Below are positions 1 to 11,786 of a stretch of DNA of 32,372 nt, piece by piece (position 1 is the stretch's first letter; each line of letters begins with the position of its first letter). The stretch covers positions 1 through 32,372 of the forward strand of contig CALCUN010000065.1 of assembly GCA_937906975.1 (NCBI GenBank). Reading direction: 5' to 3'. Below the pieces are notes generated by a model. It was given only the letters and a program-made list of their open reading frames with translations, searched no databases and was not told the DNA's origin. Source of the stretch: an uncultured Bacteroidales bacterium. GTDB lineage: Bacteria; Bacteroidota; Bacteroidia; Bacteroidales; P3. Made by a program: the position numbers and the translations under genes.

Positions 1-854
1 CTTGTATTATTATCTATATCTATTATTGTATTATTATTCTTAATTATATTAGATAATATATATCTTATATTTTGTGGTATTTCATATTTATCATATAATA
101 AAGAATTAAATAATAAAGGATGTGAATTACGTATATCTACTTGAAATTTAATATTCAAAAAATACTTTAATTCTCTTGGTGTTGATGTTAAAATATGATA
201 TATTCTATTATCGTTTTCGTTTGGTACTTTTATTTTAAATTTCTTTCTTTGATAATCTTTTAAAATGTTTAAGTGATAATTTTTCGGTTTTTTGTCCCCT
301 CTCTTTGCGTCCATAAAACGTATATCTATGTATTCTTGTGCTTTTGTATAGTTTATTTTTAGTTTTTTTAGGGCATTTAGGTATTTTCTATAAATAGGTT
401 TTGTTAAATTTTCTTTTGTCTTTTTAAGACTTTCTTTCCCCTCTTCTTTTAATACCTTTTTAAGTCTTTCTACATAAACACGATAAGGATAGAAATAAGG
501 CTTTTCACTATAAATAATGTTTTTCTCTAAATTAACAACCCTATAACCCCTGCTATGCTTACCTATAATAGCTTGTGAAACTACTTTAATTTTCTTGCTT
601 TCTATCAAGAATTCAAGTATTTCTTTATACTCATCTCCCAAAACAGACCATAATACCTCTGCATTAAGATATGCTGTATCATTATAAGAATAGATTTGTC
701 TTGAAATTAGATTGTGAATCAAAAAACTACACTTCTTTTCCATAGTTTCTTTTGATTGTCTTTTGTCTAATTCCACCTTTTCTTGATAACTTTTGTAAAA
801 CCCCTCAATGTTGAAGTCTTTTAAGCTATAATATAACTTATTTTGTGTCATATT
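1..854 (-). CDS. Partial hypothetical protein, probably of a mobile element
   Basis: An open frame of 284 codons runs from an ATG at 854 to the left edge with no stop, so the C-terminus is missing. The protein is rich in Lys, Tyr, Asn and Ile, has no signal peptide and no membrane segment, and looks cytoplasmic. The only distinctive stretch is FQVDIRNSHPLLFNSLL near residues 242-258; from memory, VDI-NS-(Q/H)P-like motifs recur in uncharacterised proteins on phages and integrative elements of Bacteroidota, but I cannot name a family. A small HTH gene is transcribed divergently from the same intergenic region, the arrangement common at the edge of integrative elements. Function not assigned; replication or mobilisation is only a guess. 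The reading frame was translated by hand across the whole stretch and has no internal stop. Confidence 0.7.
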
Positions 855-876
855 TGTATGTTTTTTATATCTACAA

Positions 877-905
877 AAGTACAAAAAAATCATCAAAAAA
901 ACAAA
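877..905 (-). promoter_or_regulatory. Candidate Bacteroidota promoter for the partial gene
   Basis: On the minus strand TACTTTTG (884 to 877) fits the TAnnTTTG -7 element and lies about 22 bp before the ATG at 854. A TTTG (905 to 902) lies 17 bp further upstream, slightly short of the usual 19-21 bp. Confidence 0.45.
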
Positions 906-1388: not shown

Positions 1389-1910
1389 TTAGTAAAACTC
1401 TATAACGTTATTTTTATAATCAATATTAACTCGTCCAAAATTTTCTAATGCAGATTGTCCAAATAAAAGTGGTGCGTCTATATTATCCACAACTGTTGCT
1501 TGTACATCCTTAATAACCACATCTCCTATTTGGACAGTTTTAAGATTAATGATAGTTCCAACAGCAATACTTCCATCAGCAATTTGGTAATATGCTTCCC
1601 CTTGAATATCCTCTTTCAATAATTTACCTTGTTTTTTCATAAAAAGAGCTTCAACCGAAGATATTACTATATCGGAAGCTCCTGTATCAAATATAACTTC
1701 CATATCAACACCGTTTATACGTACAGGTATATATAACACTCCATTTGCTTTTCTAAATGCTATTCTACACCCATTAGAAAATTTGGCGTTTGGTCTATTT
1801 TCGCTTTTTGATGTATTGGTTTTTTCAGATGCTGGATGTATTTTTGACCTTGGTCCACATGCAAAAAACAAGCTAATTATCAATAAATGTATAATAATCT
1901 TCATTTTCAT
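1389..1910 (-). CDS. Retropepsin-like (clan AA) aspartic protease, predicted lipoprotein
   Basis: A 173-aa protein starting at ATG 1910. It opens with a lipoprotein signal (MKMKIIIHLLIISLFFAC, candidate lipidated Cys18), a Ser/Lys/Asn-rich linker to about residue 45, then a single retropepsin domain. The active-site motif is VIFDTGASD with Asp75-Thr76-Gly77, and the end carries LLFGQSALENFG, where the family usually has a hydrophobic-hydrophobic-G motif. One DTG per chain means activity would need a dimer, as in retroviral and bacterial clan AA proteases. A longer upstream start at 1991 would remove the signal peptide and overlap the preceding gene by 119 nt, so it was rejected. The chosen start still overlaps the preceding OmpA-like gene by 38 nt, suggesting translational coupling. 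It is the last gene of the operon; periplasmic processing of an envelope component is inferred. Confidence 0.82.
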   Translation of the reverse strand: MKMKIIIHLLIISLFFACGPRSKIHPASEKTNTSKSENRPNAKFSNGCRIAFRKANGVLYIPVRINGVDMEVIFDTGASDIVISSVEALFMKKQGKLLKEDIQGEAYYQIADGSIAVGTIINLKTVQIGDVVIKDVQATVVDNIDAPLLFGQSALENFGRVNIDYKNNVIEFY

Positions 1911-2568
1911 TACTATTAATTTCTTCAACAAAATTACCTGGCTTAGGAATGATATGTATAACAAAACGCTGATTAGCCTTATTGCCTGCAATATCTGGTT
2001 TTATTCTAAATTTACTGCTCACTCCACTTCCTGAAACAATAAGTTCACAAGGTAATCCTTCAAACTCAATCCCTTCATTTTTCCAATAATTAACCAAAGC
2101 CAAAGCCCTTTTATAGCTCAAAACATCATTATCATAATAATTATCTCTCGAGCTTTGACCCTCAATAATCACTAAATATTCCGCATCAGGTAGAGTCTTT
2201 TTTGCATGTTCCATAAAATTAACAATAGATTTTCCAGCAGACACAATACGTTCAAGATTGTTTTTGTCTATATCATAAATATTAGGAGAGGCTGGCTCAA
2301 ATTCAATAGATATATTTTTTAGTGTATGCCTTTTGTATTCTTCATTGTATTGAAAATATATTGTGTCTATATTTTTGATAGAATTTTCTAATTGTCGAAT
2401 TTTTTCTAATTGTTTTTCTGTTGCTTTTCTCCCTTTTTCTATTTCAACAATTTTATTATGTAATAAAGCTATAGCAAGTATAAACAATATCAACATAACA
2501 AAAAACATTGAAGTCATCAAGTCCGAATAACTTGTCCAAAAAAAAGATTCTTTTTTATTTTTGCCCAT
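1873..2568 (-). CDS. MotB/OmpA-type stator subunit (ZorB-like)
   Basis: A 231-aa protein. After a short basic N-terminus comes WTSYSDLMTSMFFVMLILFI (residues 11-30), the single membrane helix typical of MotB/ZorB, with Asp16 in the place of the ion-binding aspartate. Residues 38-68 form a charged coiled coil. Residues about 85-208 are an OmpA-like domain: a beta strand ending IEGQSSRD (135-142), the LSYKRALALVNYW helix (150-162), a GSG turn, and the closing NQRFVIHII (199-207) with Arg201. The Asp usually found after IEGHT is replaced by Ser, so peptidoglycan binding may be altered. A short acidic Asn/Glu-rich tail follows. It starts 9 nt after the MotA-like gene and should form an ion channel with it. 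Known stators of this fold are MotB, ZorB and TolR-like proteins. Confidence 0.88.
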   Translation of the reverse strand: MGKNKKESFFWTSYSDLMTSMFFVMLILFILAIALLHNKIVEIEKGRKATEKQLEKIRQLENSIKNIDTIYFQYNEEYKRHTLKNISIEFEPASPNIYDIDKNNLERIVSAGKSIVNFMEHAKKTLPDAEYLVIIEGQSSRDNYYDNDVLSYKRALALVNYWKNEGIEFEGLPCELIVSGSGVSSKFRIKPDIAGNKANQRFVIHIIPKPGNFVEEINSNENEDYYTFIDN

Positions 2569-2577
2569 TACTAAAAT

Positions 2578-4197
2578 CTAATTATTCCCAAATAATGATA
2601 TGATATTCAATACTAATTGCCAAATACAGTAAGTGCAAATAATTACTCCTCCTGCTATTAAAGGAATTTTCACCCAAATAGATAATTTTTCTCTTTTAAT
2701 AGTAATATTACCAGCTGCCTTTTGGGTTGCTAAAATTCTAATTTCTTCTACAAGCGAGTTTATTGATTGACTTTGTTGTTTGGCTGAATTATTAAGATTC
2801 TCTATCATTTTGGAGATAGAGGAGAAATTGCTAACAAGTTGAGAAATCTCTTTCGTTTTTTGTTGTAACACATTGTATTGTTCATCAATAGCCTTTTGTA
2901 ATCTTTGTCCTTGTTCTGTTGTATATGCAGTTAATTCTGAGATTTCTTTTGTAGATACTTCTTTTAGATTTTCAATAGTGTTATGCAAACTATTTTCAAT
3001 AGCTCCAACAGATTGATTGATACGACTATTCATTTGTTCAAGGTTTGCTCGTTCCTCTTTAAAGAATATAGCCATATCTTCAATAGCTCGTGTTCGTTGT
3101 TCTGAAGCATCTAATTTTTCATTTAGCGCTTTTACTGAATCTAAGTATTCTCTACAAGCACTAATATGTTTAGCAATCATTCCTATTTCATCAGTACAAT
3201 TTTTTAATTTATCATAGACTTCTATATTAGCGGTAACAACTTTTTTAATTTTTAATTCATTAATTGTTTGAAGTAATTGAGCCTGTCCTGCTGTTGCTTG
3301 ATTAACATCATTTAATACATTATGTAATTCTTTTGCATTTGTAGCAAATGTTTTATTAAATTCATTAAGATTAGCAGATACTTTATCCAAGACACTTCCA
3401 AAATCATTATTCAATTTCGGCAAAAGTTCTGCTTGTATCCAACTTAAAACATTATGCTTTCTTTTTTCAACAATGATTTTTTCTGTTTTCATTTTTGTAG
3501 TACCCCAAATTGTCATTCCTATACCGACGGCACTACATATCATTGCTATTGCTACTCCTCCAAGAAGTCCACTTATACTATCTGTTGCAGTTTCGAATTC
3601 ATTTATACTAAGTAATGAGTTTAATCCTCCTGAAACCCACAAATAGCCAACCCCTATAACAATACCCGCCATTGTTCCGATTAAACCATAGTAAAGAGGT
3701 ATAGGAATTTGAGATTGAATTGCCTCTTCTTCTGCATCACAATTTCTATCAACAATATCCTTTATGAGATGAAAATCATTAACATTACCATTATTTTTAT
3801 CTAAATATTTATTGATACCTTTAACTATTGTTTCCCAAACTTCATTTCTTTTTACTTTCTTATTTACCTTTTTTATATTTTCTATTTTTTCTTTTAATTC
3901 TTTTTTTTCTTTATATTTATACTCTTTTTCCATATTTGATAATGGAAATGTTACTTTTTCGTCCCACTCAATGAATTCAATCTCTTTTTCTACGTCACGT
4001 AATTTTGTTTTTAGAGTTTGTAGTTCTTGGCTTTCTTTATCTTTTATTATACCTTTTTGTCCTATTACATATTCTTTCTCTATTGAGGTTGGAAAAATTT
4101 CACTATAACTTTTTAGACGTTGTTTTATACTTAAATAATTTTGTATTTGTAATACAAGAATTACTATAACTGCGACTATAATTAAAACGTAATGCAT
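2578..4197 (-). CDS. MotA/TolQ/ExbB-family ion channel with long coiled coil (ZorA-like)
   Basis: A 539-aa inner-membrane protein. Segments in order: a membrane helix at 2-18; a highly charged coiled coil at about 50-115; a helix at 168-188 carrying PIPLYYGLIGTMAG, the conserved GxxGT turn of MotA/ExbB/ZorA channels; a helix at 208-232 (GLLGGVAIAMICSAVGIG), the pore-lining helix of that family; about 270 residues of heptad-rich coiled coil; and a last helix at about 511-533. A long cytoplasmic tail is characteristic of ZorA, but returning to the membrane through a C-terminal helix is unusual. The next gene encodes the MotB-like partner. Together they should conduct protons or sodium and turn or push the arm. 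The sequence does not show which ion is used. Family call is strong, the process driven is unknown. Confidence 0.87.
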   Translation of the reverse strand: MHYVLIIVAVIVILVLQIQNYLSIKQRLKSYSEIFPTSIEKEYVIGQKGIIKDKESQELQTLKTKLRDVEKEIEFIEWDEKVTFPLSNMEKEYKYKEKKELKEKIENIKKVNKKVKRNEVWETIVKGINKYLDKNNGNVNDFHLIKDIVDRNCDAEEEAIQSQIPIPLYYGLIGTMAGIVIGVGYLWVSGGLNSLLSINEFETATDSISGLLGGVAIAMICSAVGIGMTIWGTTKMKTEKIIVEKRKHNVLSWIQAELLPKLNNDFGSVLDKVSANLNEFNKTFATNAKELHNVLNDVNQATAGQAQLLQTINELKIKKVVTANIEVYDKLKNCTDEIGMIAKHISACREYLDSVKALNEKLDASEQRTRAIEDMAIFFKEERANLEQMNSRINQSVGAIENSLHNTIENLKEVSTKEISELTAYTTEQGQRLQKAIDEQYNVLQQKTKEISQLVSNFSSISKMIENLNNSAKQQSQSINSLVEEIRILATQKAAGNITIKREKLSIWVKIPLIAGGVIICTYCIWQLVLNIISLFGNN

Positions 4198-4203
4198 AAT
4201 TTT

Positions 4204-5010
4204 CTAATTTAAATATTCAATAATTGCTTTTTTTGTTACTTGCCATTTATTATTTGCCTTTCTCTCACATTTCCCTTTTTGCAAGGTTTTTATTTGTTTT
4301 GCAGTATTACTATTGCCTTTTATATCACAAACGCCTTCAAAAACAGAATCCCTATTATTTATAGCCATTTCAACATCTCCTTTAAATTCAAATTCACCTG
4401 TATTTCTTCCAGAGATGTAACTTATTTCATAATAAGCATCTATCGCACACTGAACTTCTTCAAATTCTCCATTTTTAAAATGTTTCACCAAACAAGTTTC
4501 AAATGTTACTGTATTTTTCGGTTGATTGATTACAAACTCTGGCTGACAATTATTTGAAGATACGTTTTGATTTTTTTGTACTATCTGAGGTTTTACTAGT
4601 TGAGCCTTTTTTATTTCATCTACAACTTTATTTATTTCACCTATAATTTTATAGAAAGTATCTTCAGAAATATATTTAGATTTCCTAATACCCCTTTCTT
4701 TATCTAATTTCTTTTCTAACTTTTTTAACCCACAAAATAGTATTATAATTAACACACTCAATACAACAACCACAACAATTAATCCCCATAACAACAGATT
4801 ATTTTCATTATCATTTGGTAGAGAATCTAATATATTGTCACTTTTATTTACAACAGTGACATTAGTTGTTGTATTCTTAGCAGTATCTATTTCTGAAATT
4901 TTATCCGTGTTTGTTACATTTGATATATCTTGTATAGGAACACTTTTTTTATCACAAGCACTTATCACAAAACATATTAAAGATAATATTATCCAAATTC
5001 TTTTTTTCAT
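4204..5010 (-). CDS. Predicted lipoprotein with an additional membrane helix, function unknown
   Basis: A 268-aa protein from ATG 5010. It begins MKKRIWIILSLICFVISAC with a good lipobox and Cys19, then a 50-residue Thr/Asn/Asp-rich linker, a strong membrane helix at about 72-94, a basic coiled segment (KKLEKKLDKERG), and a C-terminal domain of about 115 residues. The positive charges after the helix suggest the C-terminal domain is cytoplasmic, which would make this a doubly anchored inner-membrane protein. An earlier ATG at 5034 adds MKILKIKC and overlaps the upstream gene; the 5010 start gives a cleaner signal peptide and a 4-nt gap. I do not recognise the C-terminal domain. Its place between the actin-like ATPase and the channel suggests an adaptor linking the two; that is inference. 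Confidence 0.75.
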   Translation of the reverse strand: MKKRIWIILSLICFVISACDKKSVPIQDISNVTNTDKISEIDTAKNTTTNVTVVNKSDNILDSLPNDNENNLLLWGLIVVVVVLSVLIIILFCGLKKLEKKLDKERGIRKSKYISEDTFYKIIGEINKVVDEIKKAQLVKPQIVQKNQNVSSNNCQPEFVINQPKNTVTFETCLVKHFKNGEFEEVQCAIDAYYEISYISGRNTGEFEFKGDVEMAINNRDSVFEGVCDIKGNSNTAKQIKTLQKGKCERKANNKWQVTKKAIIEYLN

Positions 5011-5014
5011 ACAT

Positions 5015-8000
5015 TTAATTTTTAATATTTTCACTTAATTCATGCAACATTCCTATCATTGGATAGAAGAATAATGTTTCTTCAATAGGGTCATTATCTT
5101 GATTTTCTTTTTGTTTTTCTGTTAATCCATTATCAAAGAAAGTGCCTAAGTCTTTTTGGCAAATATTAAAAGCCCTTTCCATAACATCATTCTCTATTCC
5201 AAAATTATTTTTAATAGAAAAATGTGTCTTGTTTTTGAATATAAAATCAAGTAAATCCCTTACATCTTTTACAACACTTTGTTTTAAGGTGTCGTTAATA
5301 AGTTTGTAAGTATCATTTTCTGTAAAGAACATTTGTTCATTGATAGTTCTCAATATCACTTTATCACCAACAGATACATTTATATTGTTACGCAAAATGT
5401 TAATTCCTCCTTTGCAGGTTGCTATCTTTGGATTATCCATAAGAATAATGTCAAGTCCATCTATATCATATTTGTCATATCCAAATACTCGACAGAAAAT
5501 ATCCTTAGTATATTCAGCCAAAGTATTATTATTAGGACTTAGAATAGAAACAACCTTTGCTCCATTTCCAGAAAATGCAATATGACGAGGAAGTGCAAGT
5601 CCTTTTAATTTCATAATATTAGCAATGTGATATATGATTGCTGTATAGAATATTAAAAACACTACTTTAAAATCATTGTCTTGTTGTAACATAACATTCC
5701 AATCCAATAAATTTGCAATGTTTTTTTCTTTCACTTTATCATCATTTTTTAGAGAAAAATAGAATGAAGCCAACTCTGTTGATAATCCTTTATTTTTTAA
5801 TTCATTATGTATATTCTCTAACTCTGACAAATCATTACTGTTTAATATATTTGAAATACGATTAGTATAATCATTCACAATACCATTAAGAGTTGCATTG
5901 CTTGTATAACCATCTCCAAATATCGTATTTGCAGCAAAACGGAAAGATGTTGTATAATTAATTTGTCCTTTTTCTGCAAAAACTACATCCGTTGTTTCTC
6001 CTCCAATATCAACACTTACCATTCTTGAAGCTGCTTGGGTAGTTGAACGAAAATGTTCGTATGGAGCAACAGATTCCATTACAGATTTAATATTTTCAAG
6101 TTGATTGCCGAAATATTTTTGATAAGAGGATTGCCATAACCTTTCATAAACATTACGTCTTGCTACTGTCATTGAAGCAGGATAGAACCATACAATTTGA
6201 GTTTTATCTAATGTTCCTCCTCCTATAAGAACTTTGTTTCTCATAAGAATCATTAGATTTTCTATATAACTTTCAACTCGCCTGCTATTTTGTGGCTCAT
6301 TACTCCATTTCAAATCTGTTGTTATTTCATTATATTTATGAATAACCCTATGTCCGTAAACAATAGGAACATTGGTTTGTGCCATAGGAATTACATTGGT
6401 TTCCCAATTAACATTTCCAGCTTCTGATAATACCGTTCTTGCAGGAAAATTAAACTTGTTTCCTATTTCTTTTGGAACTAACTCTGCTTCAAGAAGCTTT
6501 TCTGTTGCCGCAGAAAAATTTGCCCAAAATACTAATTGCTTATCATTTTCATTTATATCAAATGCCGAAGCTGCATTTATTCCATCTGAATATTCGATAT
6601 GAGTATTTGTAGTTCCAAAGTCTATTGCAAATGAATATGTTTTATTTCTGCAAGAATTATTACATAATGGAATAACAAAGCCATAAACATGACCTACACA
6701 AACTCTAATAGAATCAATGGATGTTAAATCATAAGCAAAAATATGGGCTTTTAAATAACTATTGTCATTAGTATTTCTAATAATTTCTTCTCCATTGCTT
6801 AATTTTTGTCCATTGCGATAACATTCTATTTGATGAATAGAAGTGTCTCTAAATTTATGTGTTATTGCTATACGATAACAAGTATTATCAGATAATACTA
6901 ATGGCATCATTGCCAATCCAAAATCAGAATCAAGTATTTTAATTCCTCCTCTATTACAATTTACATCAGGAGTTGAATTTTTGTAATAATTTCTTGTATA
7001 AGTAATATTACCAGATGAAACAGGTATTGTCAATGTAACACTAATATCTTCTCCATTTATAGTCTTCATAGACAATATAGGTACTCCATTAATTCCATTT
7101 ATCAACTGATCTATTGAATAAAATTCAAAAAATAAAGGTTTTATTGGTAACATTACACTTGTATTCCTTGTATTATCCCAATTGCCAAAAAAGAAATCTT
7201 GATCATTTGCTAAATGAGGATACATTAAAATTGTATCTTCCAAAAAATCATCAATAGTTAAATATGGGTATGGTATTCCAGAAAAAGGCAAAGTACGGTT
7301 TTGCCAATTGTTTGAGTCAAAATATGGTGCTTTATTTTGATTTCCCCAATTTGCTTGTACATAAAATACATTTGCATATTGATTACCCGATTCAACAGGT
7401 AATACCAAAGGCATTTTACTTCCTTTAAAATGTGTTTGTGAAATTTCAAAACCACTTGAAATATTTGTTTGAATAGGTTTTGTATGATAAGGGTAACCTA
7501 ATATATCAACAGTATTTGCATTATTGAAGTTAAGGATTTGAAAATTTTGAATAGAATTAGCATTTAAATTATCTACATCTTGCTTTAAATTAAATGGTAA
7601 TGCATTAAAGGTTTCATCTAAATATTTATTCATCTCTTCAAAATATTGTGCAAAATTTGTTGTTCCATAAGATTGACGAAACGCAAATAAATATTCTATA
7701 AATTTAGAATCACGTTTATATAATGGTTGATATTCTCCATCAAAAGGGTGGTCGTTGCCAAATGATATTTCTTGAGAAATATAACTTAAATCATTTGCAG
7801 GAGTAAAGAAAAGAGTTGCAGGAGATGTTGCTCCCACTACGTCCATTTGACTTTTTCTATTAGGTCCCATATACACTAAAATGTACAATCTTTTCATCTT
7901 GTCAAAATTATACACTTTATCATCTTGCTTAATAAATATATCAAGAGCATTATAAACTTCTGGGTGAGTATTTTTTAAACTTTCAAGATCGGTTAAATCC

Positions 8001-8314
8001 CAAGTAATAATTTGAAAAAGGTGTTTTAAAGTATTAAAATTGAAGAAAATTTCTGCTACATCTAAAGCATCTGACACCATTTTGTGATAAATTGTATCAC
8101 CATCCATATTTTTTGATTCGACTACTTCTTTAAACGCATTTTTTACTAATGCAATACGAGCAAATGGAGAAGGTATGGATGTTATTTCTTTTCTTGCTGT
8201 TGATCCATTCGGTGCAATAATTTGATTTATTACATTCGTTCCATAAGGCAAACTGTTATTCCAATCTGTATTTGTATTTGCTCCATTATTATGAAGTCTA
8301 AATATATGTGCCAT
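5015..8314 (-). CDS. Large protein with C-terminal actin/Hsp70-like ATPase domain
   Basis: A 1099-aa protein without signal peptide. The C-terminal half has the three nucleotide-site motifs of the actin/Hsp70/ParM superfamily: phosphate-1 FAIDFGTTNTH (Asp565), phosphate-2 VSVDIGGETTDVVF (Asp769), and the adenosine motif IAFSGNGAKV near 912-921. About 560 residues precede this, far more than in Hsp70 or MreB, where the ATPase starts at the N-terminus. That region begins with a short Asn-rich stretch and ARKEITSIPSPFARIALVKN, then mixed alpha/beta sequence with many Asn, Phe and Tyr; I recognise no domain in it. The ATPase is followed by about 180 residues. The gene starts 3 nt after the tubulin-like gene and is followed closely by the lipoprotein, so it is made with the GTPase and the stator. 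Filament formation or a switch role is inferred; a chaperone role cannot be excluded. Confidence 0.85.
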   Translation of the reverse strand: MAHIFRLHNNGANTNTDWNNSLPYGTNVINQIIAPNGSTARKEITSIPSPFARIALVKNAFKEVVESKNMDGDTIYHKMVSDALDVAEIFFNFNTLKHLFQIITWDLTDLESLKNTHPEVYNALDIFIKQDDKVYNFDKMKRLYILVYMGPNRKSQMDVVGATSPATLFFTPANDLSYISQEISFGNDHPFDGEYQPLYKRDSKFIEYLFAFRQSYGTTNFAQYFEEMNKYLDETFNALPFNLKQDVDNLNANSIQNFQILNFNNANTVDILGYPYHTKPIQTNISSGFEISQTHFKGSKMPLVLPVESGNQYANVFYVQANWGNQNKAPYFDSNNWQNRTLPFSGIPYPYLTIDDFLEDTILMYPHLANDQDFFFGNWDNTRNTSVMLPIKPLFFEFYSIDQLINGINGVPILSMKTINGEDISVTLTIPVSSGNITYTRNYYKNSTPDVNCNRGGIKILDSDFGLAMMPLVLSDNTCYRIAITHKFRDTSIHQIECYRNGQKLSNGEEIIRNTNDNSYLKAHIFAYDLTSIDSIRVCVGHVYGFVIPLCNNSCRNKTYSFAIDFGTTNTHIEYSDGINAASAFDINENDKQLVFWANFSAATEKLLEAELVPKEIGNKFNFPARTVLSEAGNVNWETNVIPMAQTNVPIVYGHRVIHKYNEITTDLKWSNEPQNSRRVESYIENLMILMRNKVLIGGGTLDKTQIVWFYPASMTVARRNVYERLWQSSYQKYFGNQLENIKSVMESVAPYEHFRSTTQAASRMVSVDIGGETTDVVFAEKGQINYTTSFRFAANTIFGDGYTSNATLNGIVNDYTNRISNILNSNDLSELENIHNELKNKGLSTELASFYFSLKNDDKVKEKNIANLLDWNVMLQQDNDFKVVFLIFYTAIIYHIANIMKLKGLALPRHIAFSGNGAKVVSILSPNNNTLAEYTKDIFCRVFGYDKYDIDGLDIILMDNPKIATCKGGINILRNNINVSVGDKVILRTINEQMFFTENDTYKLINDTLKQSVVKDVRDLLDFIFKNKTHFSIKNNFGIENDVMERAFNICQKDLGTFFDNGLTEKQKENQDNDPIEETLFFYPMIGMLHELSENIKN

Positions 8315-8317
8315 AAA

Positions 8318-9709
8318 CTAAAAGTTTAAGTTATTATTTGTTATTTGTTTTGTGGAATTGTAAAATAGTTCAACAAACCATTGTTCTTTACTAATTCCTG
8401 TCGGTCTTTTCTCTCTATTTAGAGTAGCATCAAAAAGAGCATAATTAGATAATCTACTCTTTTTGTCTGCAATATTCTTAACCATTTTCAAAACATTGCG
8501 TTTTTTGTCTAAATCAAAAGGAGAAAAAGCCCTCATATTATCATTTAGTTCTTGTAACCAATTAACATAAAGTTCAAGAATGTTCTCTACATCTTTTTCA
8601 AATCCATTTCCAAAGAAAGATTTATCAAACTCAGGGTCAATCGCCCATGGTTGATGTTTATACTGAGAACTACGCTCATGACGTAAGTATTTATCAAATA
8701 ATAAGAATTGTGTTAAGGGTTTTGCTATTTGATTGTATGTTACTTTCCCTAAATCTGAAAAAGTAATTGTATCTGTTGTTTGATTTATACCATATTCCTT
8801 GCAAACGGTTCTTCCTGTTTGCGGATTTTGCATATTAGCAAAATCTATTATAGATAAAGCACTAAATAATTCTACTACGTGAGCAGAATTATTTTGAGAA
8901 TCTCCACCTTCGCTATTATTATAAGTAGGATTTTGAGTATCTGCGATATAATATAATTGATCAATACTATTTGTTCCTGTTATATTAGTATCGTAATACG
9001 CAAGAGCTGCTTTAGTTTTGTCTATAAAAGAAGAAGAATCTATTGCACTACTTTCATCTACTGCTACTGAAAAATATGGTAACACAGTAATTGCTCCAAT
9101 AGGAGAAGTATTTAATAAATTAAATTTTGGTAAAGTTTTATTCCCACGTAAAGTTTTTAGAAGTAATGGGAAGCCACTTGCTCCTGTTCCTCCAAATATT
9201 GAGCTAACTATGAAAATTCTATCTCCTTGATTGAAAGAATTGGCAAATTGTTGAAAGACGCTTGAATTTACAAATTGATTTAGCACTATACTTCCAATAT
9301 TTGGGTTTCCCTTAAAACCAACATTCATATTAGAAGACAAATTGTCATTTGAAAACAACATTCTCATCAATGCTTGATTATTTTCAGACATTGTTGTCAA
9401 AGAAATATAATCTTCAAACTTTTTGTTGTCTGTTTGTTGTAAAGGAATAAAAAATCGATTTACATCTTCATTTATTTTTGTTCCAAAAAAATGTTCTGAT
9501 GTCGTTGCATAACTAAGTTGTTGTCTAACTTTGATGTAAGCATCAAACGAAGCCACTGCACGAGTAAGACTATCTGCACTACTATCAGGGTCTATTATTA
9601 TTGGTGATATTTCCATCTTGCAATCTACTCCAGAAGCAAGAAGCATTGTTAATGAACGTAGAACACGGGCTCCTGTTCCTCCTATTCCAAATACATATAA
9701 TTTACTCAT
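8318..9709 (-). CDS. Tubulin/FtsZ-like GTPase (Tubulin_2-type)
   Basis: A 463-aa cytoplasmic protein. The N-terminus KLYVFGIGGTGARVLRSL (residues 3-20) matches the first nucleotide loop of the FtsZ/tubulin fold, and IFGGTGASGFPLL near 170-182 is the tubulin signature loop GGTGxG. IIIDPDSSADSL near 36-47 fits the strand and acidic residue after the second loop. The C-terminal part, rich in aromatic and charged residues, does not show the usual FtsZ tail. Bacterial proteins of this kind are annotated tubulin-like and have been grouped with vWA and OmpA-family neighbours in predicted membrane-remodelling systems, which agrees with the genes here. It sits between a small membrane protein and the actin-like ATPase gene with gaps of 10 and 3 nt. 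GTP binding is very likely; polymerisation cannot be judged from sequence. Confidence 0.88.
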   Translation of the reverse strand: MSKLYVFGIGGTGARVLRSLTMLLASGVDCKMEISPIIIDPDSSADSLTRAVASFDAYIKVRQQLSYATTSEHFFGTKINEDVNRFFIPLQQTDNKKFEDYISLTTMSENNQALMRMLFSNDNLSSNMNVGFKGNPNIGSIVLNQFVNSSVFQQFANSFNQGDRIFIVSSIFGGTGASGFPLLLKTLRGNKTLPKFNLLNTSPIGAITVLPYFSVAVDESSAIDSSSFIDKTKAALAYYDTNITGTNSIDQLYYIADTQNPTYNNSEGGDSQNNSAHVVELFSALSIIDFANMQNPQTGRTVCKEYGINQTTDTITFSDLGKVTYNQIAKPLTQFLLFDKYLRHERSSQYKHQPWAIDPEFDKSFFGNGFEKDVENILELYVNWLQELNDNMRAFSPFDLDKKRNVLKMVKNIADKKSRLSNYALFDATLNREKRPTGISKEQWFVELFYNSTKQITNNNLNF

Positions 9710-9719
9710 AATTATTTTT

Positions 9720-10223
9720 TTATTTATTTCTTTTAGGGAATATACTCTTCCAAGGTGTATGTCTGCAATTTATACTCCAACGTTTACCAATTATAGATAC
9801 TATTCCAAATAATACAAATGATATTATTCCGTTTGCAACACCAAACATCCAACAATGATAGCTATATATATTTTGTATAACTTCACCATTTGGTTGTGTT
9901 GTGTATAAAAGGCAATCTGGTATTAAACCATCTGCTAAATAATAATTTGCACAACATCCCGCAAATAATAAATTTATTACAAACGCTCCAAGTCCTACTA
10001 TTAGCCAATGCCACCATTTATTAAAGCGTGGATGATTGAGCCAATAATAGTAAATTGCAAATAATAATAAAGTTGTTAGCAACATCACCCAACCTATCAT
10101 TAAATAATGATTCGTTGCTTCCCAACTATTTGTTTGACAATCATAGCCCCAAAGAAAAGAATGTAAATATTCTCCAAACAAATTTACAAACCAATAATAA
10201 ATGTTTCCAAATAAATTTCCCAT
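9720..10223 (-). CDS. Small polytopic membrane protein, function unknown
   Basis: A 167-aa protein with about three clear membrane helices (residues near 42-60, 71-90 and 126-146) and an aromatic N-terminus, GNIYYWFVNLFGEYLHSFLW, that may be a fourth membrane or interfacial segment. The tail is basic (GKRWSINCRHTPWKSIFPKRNK region) and probably cytoplasmic. Five of the cysteines (CQTN, CCAN, PDCLL, YHCW) lie in loops expected to face the periplasm or lie at the membrane, so disulfides are possible. It has no family I recognise. Its gap of 7 nt to the vWA gene upstream and 10 nt to the tubulin-like gene downstream puts it firmly in the operon, perhaps as the membrane anchor for the GTPase; that is inference. 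Confidence 0.72.
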   Translation of the reverse strand: MGNLFGNIYYWFVNLFGEYLHSFLWGYDCQTNSWEATNHYLMIGWVMLLTTLLLFAIYYYWLNHPRFNKWWHWLIVGLGAFVINLLFAGCCANYYLADGLIPDCLLYTTQPNGEVIQNIYSYHCWMFGVANGIISFVLFGIVSIIGKRWSINCRHTPWKSIFPKRNK

Positions 10224-10230
10224 AATAATA

Positions 10231-11475
10231 TTATTTTATTGTTATTTTTAATTCTGCAAGATTATCTGTATCAAATGTATAAGCATCAAATAGACCTCCT
10301 ATTAGATAAGAAAAACCATAAGTTTTTTGAATTGTATCATCAGGATTAGGAAATCCTCCGTTCTCATCTGATAATTCAGTAATCCATCTTGGCTTTATAT
10401 TTTTTAATTTAATAGTAATATCACCTCTTTGCTTTACAGAAGATTCAATAGTGATAATGTATTCTGTATCGCTTTGTTTAGAAACTCTACTTACCTTCCA
10501 TTTTGAATTAGATGTTTCATAATTAGATACGTCTAACAAATATTCTTCGCATTGTAATAAATTAGAAAAGTCAGCTTTAACCTTTATTTGATATAATTCC
10601 CCTTGTGCGGTTTTTGTCTTTTTTAAATTTTCTACTGTATTTGACGCATCATGAGATAGTTTATATCTTCCACCAGCTACAATATTGTATTTTATATCTT
10701 TTATTCCATTGCTTATCATACATATTTCATCAGGCTGAGATTTTATCTTTTCTATTGTAGCATTATGGATTTGTTGTAAATCTTTAACATTCCCCATTAA
10801 CCACAAATAATATGGTCTTTTGCCATCAAAATATTGTTTATTATCAACTGTATCATAATAATTGCCTTTAAAACTTCCCAACATTCTATATACAATCATT
10901 CCTGTTGAGTTGAAATTATGTTGTTTTCTCAAAAATGATTTAATACCTATTTGTTGATTGACTAAATATTCAGACGCATTTTTACCTCTACCTGGCGAAA
11001 ATATACAATCAGACACTAATAAACTAATAGTATCATCTTGGGGATAAACTTTTACTAAAATTTCAGCAATATCTGTAGCACCACTATTTCCACCTGAGAC
11101 TTTAAATGTTTTAGGTTCTAATTTATCTACAAAATCTTTTATCACAGAACCTTCTTTAATAACATCACTATTTATAAAGTTTAAGTTTAATTCTGAAACT
11201 GTGATTGAACTTTCTATATCACTCAGATAATTATATACAGTATTGCGAAATTCACTATTATTTCCTGCACCAACATATCCATACATGCTTCCAGAATTTT
11301 CTACATAAACATTTAACACAGGCGGATTATCTTCTATTGGAGTAGAAATTATTTCTGTTGATGTTTCTGTTTTTCCCTTTGGATTTTGATGAGGATTACC
11401 ACAACTGCTCACTATAATTGCAAACAAACAAATATAAGTTCTAATACTATTTGTTATTTTTAATTTATTTCTCAT
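10231..11475 (-). CDS. vWA-type lipoprotein with atypical MIDAS
   Basis: A 414-aa protein, first gene of the operon. The signal peptide ends IVSSC with Cys25 as the lipidated residue. After a Thr/Pro-rich linker, VLNVYVENSGSMYGY (residues 54-67) is the start of a von Willebrand A fold: the DxSxS metal site appears as Glu59-x-Ser61-x-Ser63. GGNSGATDIAEIL supplies the MIDAS threonine (Thr134) and LLVSDCIFS its aspartate (Asp156). The vWA region runs to about residue 250. The remaining 160 residues, mostly beta-strand-like with ITIKLKNIKPRW, form an unrecognised C-terminal domain. Glu in place of the first Asp could weaken or change metal binding. vWA proteins accompany tubulin-like GTPases in known predicted systems. 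Ligand sensing or scaffolding in the periplasm is inference. No Shine-Dalgarno is seen; the leader contains a structured RNA. Confidence 0.82.
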   Translation of the reverse strand: MRNKLKITNSIRTYICLFAIIVSSCGNPHQNPKGKTETSTEIISTPIEDNPPVLNVYVENSGSMYGYVGAGNNSEFRNTVYNYLSDIESSITVSELNLNFINSDVIKEGSVIKDFVDKLEPKTFKVSGGNSGATDIAEILVKVYPQDDTISLLVSDCIFSPGRGKNASEYLVNQQIGIKSFLRKQHNFNSTGMIVYRMLGSFKGNYYDTVDNKQYFDGKRPYYLWLMGNVKDLQQIHNATIEKIKSQPDEICMISNGIKDIKYNIVAGGRYKLSHDASNTVENLKKTKTAQGELYQIKVKADFSNLLQCEEYLLDVSNYETSNSKWKVSRVSKQSDTEYIITIESSVKQRGDITIKLKNIKPRWITELSDENGGFPNPDDTIQKTYGFSYLIGGLFDAYTFDTDNLAELKITIK

Positions 11476-11528
11476 TTCTGTTATTGTTTATTAAATTTTA
11501 ATTACTAAACCACTTGACTTATGGGCAT

Positions 11529-11605
11529 AAAAAAACGTGGGACTTTTTTCTTACTATAATGTGAGGTCCTGGAACTACCTATCAATCGAATAAGAAAAGC
11601 CCACG
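11529..11605 (-). terminator. Candidate terminator fold at the end of the structured RNA
   Basis: On the minus strand, bases 11605-11591 (CGTGGGCTTTTCTTA) pair with 11553-11536 (TAAGAAAAAAGTCCCACG) in 15 bp with two small bulges, and a run of seven U follows at 11535-11529. The 37-nt loop contains half of the other fold, so the two structures exclude each other. Confidence 0.5.
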
Positions 11606-11675
11606 ATATTACTCGTGAGCATTTTCGGCTTATCTTCTCGATTGATTGCATGAAATTTTCCAGGTTTCACATTAT
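11536..11675 (-). ncRNA. Structured RNA: 6S-like long hairpin or regulatory leader
   Basis: A long interrupted hairpin: ATAATGTGA (11556-11564) pairs with 11667-11675, CCTGGAA (11568-11574) with 11658-11664, then a large asymmetric bubble (11575-11580 against 11647-11657), then ATCAATCGA (11581-11589) with 11638-11646, and short upper stems ending in CACGA/TCGTG with loop 11607-11612. A closing stem, a central bubble and a terminal stem are the plan of 6S RNA, which mimics an open promoter. I favour the minus strand because TATACTTG lies directly before it and a U7 run directly after it. Because it lies between the operon promoter candidates and its first gene, it could instead be a cis-acting attenuator. 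No match to a specific RNA family was checked. Confidence 0.5.
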
Positions 11676-11683
11676 CAAGTATA
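11676..11683 (-). promoter_or_regulatory. Possible -7 element just before the structured RNA
   Basis: TATACTTG on the minus strand differs from TAnnTTTG at one position and would start RNA inside the first arm of the long hairpin. No clear -33 TTTG is seen. Confidence 0.3.
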
Positions 11684-11786
11684 AGCAAAAATGCTTTTAT
11701 ATGTCGTTAAAATTTGTTAAGTCTTAATGTTTTTTATTCTTTTTCTCCTTTTTGTCCTCCTTTGTTAAGGTTTAACTACTATTTTG

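Follow-up and report, generated by a model that had tools for sequence, protein, structure and literature searches.

Several described systems resemble, each in part, the eight-gene operon (G1–G8) analyzed here, which occupies positions 1389..11475 of a 32,372-nucleotide contig from an uncultured Bacteroidales bacterium (CALCUN010000065.1; this whole stretch is called the window). An earlier reading of the letters alone, referred to here as the original prediction, had recognized in it tubulin-like and actin-like NTPases, an ion-driven stator and three lipoproteins. Operons of FtsZ-like family 1 (FtsZl1) with vWA proteins, GTPases and OmpA proteins have been described (Makarova and Koonin 2010, PMC2875224). 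As far as the main text of that paper goes, they share with the window a tubulin-superfamily GTPase that is not the cell-division FtsZ, a vWA-type partner, and transmembrane (TM) and OmpA-family proteins, whereas the P-loop GTPases or kinases that often accompany them are lacking in the window operon; the same text places actin in other contexts only and mentions neither MotA nor a protease, and unnamed families in its supplement may include some of these.

For Zorya, the ZorB aspartate, peptidoglycan binding and the ZorA tail are reported to be needed for defense (PMC11890865, in the accessible part of the article). The window likewise encodes a MotA/MotB-like pair with an ion-channel aspartate, a peptidoglycan-binding arm and a cytoplasmic tail, but unlike Zorya it adds cytoskeletal NTPase partners and a tail of ~230 residues with a C-terminal TM helix. 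It is not classed as Zorya because ZorC, D, E, F and G found no match among the eight proteins at E ≤ 1. GTPase-centric conflict systems with tubulin, HSP70 and vWA themes, proposed to act as multimerizing switches or effectors (Kaur et al. 2020, PMC7159879), also combine tubulin and Hsp70-type NTPases with vWA proteins. As set out in the available portion of that article, however, they are defined by a DO-GTPase together with GAP1, neither of which was found in the window operon, and in their GAP1-N2 neighborhoods HSP70 and tubulin are separate themes, with MotA/MotB going unmentioned there. Pfam, which we take to hold GAP1 models, returned no P-loop GTPase or GAP1 match for any of the eight proteins at E ≤ 0.1.

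The operon is a variant of the known, uncharacterized FtsZ-like-1/vWA operons in which a Zorya-type stator and exchangeable periplasmic hydrolases are added. In the open-access literature, covered through titles and the starts of abstracts and with most subscription journals outside its scope, we found no paper that places tubulin, actin and a stator in one operon, and a search on SrfABC and other actin/tubulin systems gave nothing on this operon. It is a real, conserved machine that has apparently gone unstudied so far, and it may serve defense or envelope upkeep. The genes are as follows:

G1, 10231..11475, minus strand: lipoprotein with lipobox Cys25 and a MIDAS-like motif, VENSGSM; 'vWA-like' by motif only
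G2, 9720..10223, minus strand: small polytopic membrane protein with 3–4 predicted TM helices
G3, 8318..9709, minus strand: tubulin/FtsZ-superfamily GTPase; GGTG at 10–13, FGGTGASG at 172–179
G4, 5015..8314, minus strand: protein of 1099 amino acids with an actin/Hsp70-type ATPase core at residues 557–982 (DFGTT, DIGGETTD, SGNG)
G5, 4204..5010, minus strand: signal peptide and lipobox, short predicted periplasmic stretch, one predicted TM helix and a predicted cytoplasmic C-terminal domain
G6, 2578..4197, minus strand: MotA/ZorA-like channel subunit
G7, 1873..2568, minus strand: MotB/ZorB-like arm; one TM helix with Asp16 and an OmpA-type peptidoglycan-binding domain
G8, 1389..1913, minus strand: retropepsin-like aspartic protease lipoprotein, DTGAS; terminal, exchangeable slot

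These minus-strand coordinates agree with the predicted layout of eight same-strand genes that overlap or are separated by 3–10 nt: with the likely starts, the gaps from G1 through G7 are 7, 10, 3, 4, 6 and 9 nt, and G7 overlaps G8 by 41 nt. The gene caller used longest open reading frames, and some intergenic gaps were thereby inflated; the longest frames of G5 and G8 begin at 5034 and 1991, and sequence context puts the likely ATG codons downstream, at about 5010 and 1913, respectively.

Recurrence, linkage and co-evolution of the genes

We scanned 118 loci, consisting of the window and 117 relatives picked by tubulin, actin or MotB matches. Full-length tubulin and actin genes occur together in 93 of these, and in all 93 the tubulin gene lies upstream of the actin gene on the same strand, within 300 nt in 84 cases. 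Of the 93 loci, 82 have a G1 homolog upstream, 72 have G2 close by and 46 have a stator gene, some loci ending early. Runella zeae DSM 19591 (L002) has the core and a protease without a stator, and Paludibacter propionicigenes WB4 is a further carrier (Palpr_2046/Palpr_2047). On a contig of a Prevotellaceae metagenome-assembled genome (L001), all eight genes are kept in the same order at 33–57% identity (G5 over 77 residues only), and this order, together with the structure models of the tubulin and the actin, makes the observation more than chance. The eight genes do not form a fixed set: the core is G1–G4 (lipoprotein, TM protein, tubulin, actin), usually with G5. The recurrence as a unit that the original prediction had put up for testing holds for this core and for L001, and gives way where the stator is missing or the terminal enzyme is exchanged.

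Exceptions to the pairing are three loci with tubulin and no actin (L112, L113 and L104) and six with distant or truncated actin matches and no tubulin in the stretch covered (L187, L190–L194). Cyanobacterial plasmids of Gloeothece and Picosynechococcus carry homologs of G1, tubulin and actin, followed by different downstream genes; at the G2 position they have a small membrane-type protein that the G2 profile does not match, and in Gloeothece (L124) the G1 homolog lies on the other strand.

With a single query, which gives a lower bound, the tubulin was found in at least 13 of 394 genomes across the phylum, a patchy spread, and in at least 22 of 393 genomes of an unselected order-level sample. 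MotB turned up in 20 genomes of this order-level sample, and 11 genomes have both, against ~1.1 expected by chance (20 × 22 / 393). Twelve of the 20 MotB matches lie with tubulin, actin or further genes of the system: eight share the contig of the tubulin, and four are on truncated contigs that hold actin, G5 or a terminal-enzyme gene. The remaining 8 matches lie elsewhere or are weak or undecided. Among 41 genomes chosen as system-bearing, 37 have a MotB match. The best one always falls inside the system locus, and 36 of the 37 genomes have no other at E ≤ 1e-3 with the one query used, by which distant stators are missed. Scattered homologs, or NTPases that do not fold as tubulin and actin, had been named as findings that would speak against a single system. 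Both folds match, and the scattering argument fails because MotB sits at the system locus in 37 of 37 genomes; related stators do occur elsewhere.

Pairwise distances across the 32 loci that have all seven genes are strongly correlated, reaching 0.98 for tubulin–actin. With UvrC as species marker (30 genomes and the window, L164 being left out), the partial correlations are: tubulin–actin, 0.94; tubulin–MotA and actin–MotA, 0.90; tubulin–MotB, 0.62; and G5–MotB, the lowest, 0.52. Close species may carry very different versions, as in L176 and L167, whose UvrC proteins are 93% identical and whose tubulins are only 44% identical. The core and the stator thus co-evolve beyond the species signal, and the linkage in 93 of 93 loci and the co-evolution given UvrC bear out the single linked system that had been proposed.

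A FastTree tree of the tubulin (98 rows, with a number of long-branch warnings) implies nine or more changes of stator state over the 83 rows that could be classed (46 have a stator, 37 lack it). These changes, the incomplete presence of the stator among the loci and the related stators in other contexts are what one would see if the stator and the protease were passengers beside a tubulin–actin operon rather than parts of the system, but their regular position and strand, their co-evolution with the core given UvrC and the lack of a second MotB homolog in 36 of 37 genomes make this hardly likely at all.

Core proteins, stator pair and exchangeable last slot

The motifs quoted in the original prediction are all present, with key residues invariant across relatives and other letters varying, and structure models of G3 and G4 match the tubulin and actin cores that it had proposed, the top VIA rows being FtsZ for G3 and MamK/MreB for G4. 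In G3, the GGTG of the T4 loop is invariant in 98/98 members and the last glycine of GGTGxxG is kept in 89/98. Against Pfam Tubulin_2 (PF13809) the window protein scores 22.3 bits, under the curated cut-off of 27, and many of its relatives, such as P0003 (68% identity), carry PF13809 as a precomputed domain; we take this family to be linked to FtsZl1. The Pfam scores of the G4 actin-family core and the G7 OmpA domain are likewise below curated cut-offs. In the T7-loop region of G3, E280 is kept in 98/98 and D289, after the connector helix, in 73/98. An FtsZ T7 loop is not claimed, as the apparent DF motif is not invariant.

G4 has the two lobes and the phosphate and adenosine motifs of the actin fold. 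Its key residues D565, D769, G771 and G772 are invariant in 101/101 members, while the glutamate position of DIGGETTD is glycine in 84/101 and further letters of the motif vary too. As in FtsA–FtsZ and MreB/MamK, an actin-type ATPase stands beside a tubulin-type GTPase and would work at the inner membrane; unlike in these, G4 has an extra N-terminal region of ~555 residues ahead of its actin/Hsp70-type core, and the T7 loop of G3 is not clearly identifiable.

The assignment of G1 as a vWA lipoprotein stands in part. Cys25 of the lipobox is kept by all 21 aligned members (a simple lipobox pattern missed some members), and the MIDAS-like ExSxSM motif begins with glutamate in 78 and aspartate in 9 of 87. 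VWA profiles gave no match for the window protein at E ≤ 0.1 or for the 21 members at E ≤ 0.01, and the G1 alignment profile found no VWA match in the PDB at E ≤ 1. We rejected a vWA domain as proven, profile searches giving no VWA match and the MIDAS-like motif standing by itself. G5, described as a lipoprotein with an extra helix, has the lipobox and the predicted TM helix in the window; the lipobox is not family-wide, and by eye the signal peptide of most relatives ends in AQ or GQ. The trans-envelope anatomy as a whole is as the original prediction had it, to judge from sequence-based predictions of topology.

G6 runs in the order TM1, long cytoplasmic loop, TM2–TM3 and coiled-coil tail, the latter closed by the extra C-terminal TM helix in the window and in part of the relatives. 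Its channel residues T175 and S222 are kept in 54/54 members; in G7, Asp16 and the S, R and A of the OmpA-type LSxxRA motif are kept in 50/50. By alignment, G6 and G7 carry the predicted residues of an ion-driven stator of the MotAB/ExbBD type, namely a membrane aspartate in the arm and polar residues in the channel. Among solved structures, the MotB profile best matches 8vvn (E 1e-15) and 8qyd (E 3e-9), followed by flagellar MotB 6ykp (1e-6). The first is named MotB-related, and the partner chain in the second is labeled ZorA of ZorAB; 8vvn is presumably also a ZorAB structure, with ZorB as the matched chain. The nearest PADLOC model to G7 is ZorB1 (E 7e-15), although the NCBIfam ZorB1 model gives only 30.9 bits vs a cut-off of 400. 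Single-sequence ZorA matches of G6 span the coiled coil only, and its PADLOC placement, by the coiled coil, is weak; with the G6 profile, a match to ZorA 8qyk covers the region of the channel helices (E 0.0013).

G8 matches the retropepsin family PF13975 at 57.5 bits vs a cut-off of 28.2, and DTGA is kept in 20/20 members. The last-slot lipoprotein varies among loci: retropepsin (PF13975), trypsin-like peptidase (PF13365) or staphylococcal nuclease (SNase, PF00565); in three loci (L105, L157 and L171) an SNase-like stretch, by eye, begins the protein and the protease follows. Pfam models were run on 20 carrier genomes (96.9 Mb), where 7 of 8 gag-asp matches below 1e-10 and 4 of 16 SNase matches are operon copies, one of the four (L086) on the opposite strand; as the genomes were chosen as carriers and their operon copies known beforehand, these counts and the binomial P-values computed from them are no independent test, and the counts show scarcity elsewhere. 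The asp, sn and tryp profiles, trained on operon copies, match 0 of 323 control genes. Some hidden Markov model labels at E 1e-3 may be drift: second 'G5' genes, and 'tryp' labels in L108, L157 and L185, which are without GxSGG.

A stator that shares its operon with secreted lipoprotein enzymes could also power export or surface display, with the terminal lipoprotein as cargo, as GldLM powers type 9 secretion. We regard this as highly unlikely, since no gene of the conserved set is recognized as a channel or translocon and the stator is missing from about half of the loci.

Two further recurrent genes were seen. One follows G5 or the protease in eight loci (L085, 15105–16520, and seven relatives), and WG repeats were matched in both members tested, L085 and L092. 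The other follows the stator in one clade (L106, 15033–15998; L107, 4125–4904; L129), and DUF4357 scores in it above the cut-off in a viral contig (L131) and below it in L106.

Possible roles in defense, envelope remodeling and stress

We propose, tentatively and as somewhat short of probable, that the operon encodes a trans-envelope sensor–effector machine that reacts when an invader, for instance a phage, breaches the envelope. The computation shows how the genes are linked, which folds and motifs they have, that they co-evolve and that some modules are exchanged; the steps of the mechanism are what we infer: (i) the peptidoglycan-anchored MotB/ZorB-like arm and the MotA/ZorA-like channel would detect local alterations of the wall and gate ion flow; (ii) through the cytoplasmic coiled-coil tail, the signal would reach both NTPases, the FtsZ-like and the actin-like one; (iii) these would switch or polymerize at the inner membrane, like FtsZ and FtsA; (iv) this state may be carried to the periplasm by G5, which is bitopic, together with the small TM protein and the lipoprotein (G2 and G1); and (v) the last-slot lipoprotein hydrolase, placed or licensed there, would cut the invader's protein or DNA. 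In lineages lacking the stator, G1 and G5 alone might act as the sensor. Defense is favored because the stator is kin to that of Zorya, the exchange of protease and nuclease is effector-like, the spread is patchy and relatives of the stator stand beside DarT.

If the defensive reading is true, Zorya-type sensing would reach beyond cytoplasmic nucleases, to NTPase switches and to effectors in the periplasm. A more specific form, a 'cytoskeletal Zorya' of envelope immunity in which the stator triggers a tubulin/actin filament switch and, through it, exchangeable periplasmic effectors that attack before DNA entry, with the mobile stator also firing DarT, seems rather unlikely. An operon that ties an ion-driven cell-wall motor to neighboring genes for a tubulin-like and an actin-like protein, apart from the divisome, would put the bacterial cytoskeleton to a new use, and its exchangeable periplasmic proteases and nucleases offer a direct test of the function.

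For the genomic setting, we compared genes flanking 20 Cytophagales loci (up to six per locus and 103 in total, none shorter than 150 amino acids) with control genes that lie on the same contigs at a distance of ~120 kb, using 98 of 120 listed ones. The location in defense islands that the original prediction had raised was not borne out by these Cytophagales flanks. Several results weigh against a defensive role. The 20 flanks show no enrichment of defense genes, with one PADLOC family (3 of 103 genes), while the 98 control genes hold nine, four of them phospholipase models with one member each. In Cytophagales, the order of Runella, the system is common, 62 of 251 genomes having an actin match below 1e-100. 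Apart from the stator pair, none of the eight proteins has a convincing PADLOC match; coiled-coil proteins of other PADLOC systems are also hit by G6 (E 3e-4 or weaker), and G1 matches PDC-M24A (E 0.01). A recognized terminal hydrolase is present in just 28 of 93 loci, some loci ending early; in 2 of these 28 the trypsin label lies upstream of tubulin, some labels are without motif, and SNase occurs in 5 of the 93. A stator gene lies near just 1 of 15 DarT-like matches in the 393 genomes (flanks of ~1.5 kb), TerD beside one distant member (L095) may point to stress rather than defense, and we found no experimental work on the operon in the open-access literature. A plain actin-profile count of 243/251 Cytophagales genomes was rejected, since the profile also finds other actin-family proteins.

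The same flanks and the frequency in Cytophagales sit well with a machine for envelope remodeling or morphogenesis, an accessory divisome or elongasome whose stator would exert force on the wall or outer membrane like Tol–Pal and whose hydrolases process envelope proteins. It would make use of the FtsZ-like and MreB/FtsA-like pair, and membrane remodeling is what Makarova and Koonin (PMC2875224, main text) propose for FtsZl1 operons with vWA and OmpA-family proteins. Set against this are the patchy occurrence in the phylum sample (13/394), the very different versions in close species, a nuclease as alternative terminal enzyme, which is ill-suited to wall remodeling, and stator kin that pair with DarT; we consider a remodeling role somewhat unlikely. 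If it is true, FtsZ-like family 1, reported in 2010, would gain a mechanistic frame.

Among 50,697 phage records there is no actin-like match, and system proteins have weak matches in PHROGs. At least three IMG/VR contigs carry tubulin and actin, with host flanks possible. Two IMG/VR contigs (58 and 103 kb; L129–L132), classed as viral in two datasets, carry the core and the stator as cargo or host flank.

Stator relatives beside DarT bear on the defensive reading. In Parabacteroides distasonis (NZ_OY725823.1, 11523–15645; L247), a MotB 54% identical to that of the window lies beside MotA, and the pair adjoins genes for DarT (PF14487, E 5e-30) and for a DUF6939 protein, possibly NADAR-like, whose match to NADAR–DarT1 is sub-threshold. 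An integrase gene lies a few genes upstream, and a YhcG nuclease gene is also upstream of the set; the record is filed as a plasmid, yet holds genes such as lepA and metA. This arrangement of stator, DarT and DUF6939 is a possible new stator-coupled DarT system. In another locus (L117, 6317–11422) the stator pair (MotB 39% identical) lies between a TPR–DarT protein and an ADP-ribosylglycohydrolase, in L118 a pair lies beside an SNF2 helicase, and the L119 pair has a CHAT protease nearby, neighbors that likewise count as toxin or defense genes. We rejected stator–DarT as a common cassette: the single case among the 15 DarT-like matches is a locus already known, and the Parabacteroides record is a second instance.

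Other neighbors would suit a Ter-like membrane stress complex that would respond to chemical or envelope stress, its lipoprotein hydrolases clearing damaged periplasmic proteins. A TerD gene (L095, 4297–4863; PF02342, E 1e-70; three TerD labels) follows a distant tubulin–actin pair, and in L119 (5809–14416) a related stator pair stands beside small vWA, TPR–CHAT and, by eye, PP2C-like proteins. TerD is, however, labeled in just 1 of 118 loci (L095, with a one-sequence profile), a second TerD-like gene, seen by eye (L093, 7877–8455), has no Pfam match, and both loci are distant from the window's clade, so that a Ter-like role is distinctly unlikely. Serine protease and SNase alternatives, cyanobacterial plasmid relatives, TerD neighbors of one distant member and DarT-paired stators all go beyond the original prediction, whose observation is confirmed and whose interpretation is partly supported.

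At the edge of the window, positions 1–896 (minus strand) hold a partial open reading frame, by eye possibly a replication protein, with no Pfam or PHROG match. Directly upstream of the operon, positions 11540–11690 form a long imperfect inverted repeat; an Rfam scan of the window, this repeat included, returned no RNA, and the operon-strand RNA of positions 11500–11720 (−58.6 kcal/mol, z −5.3) is predicted to fold far better than its shuffles.

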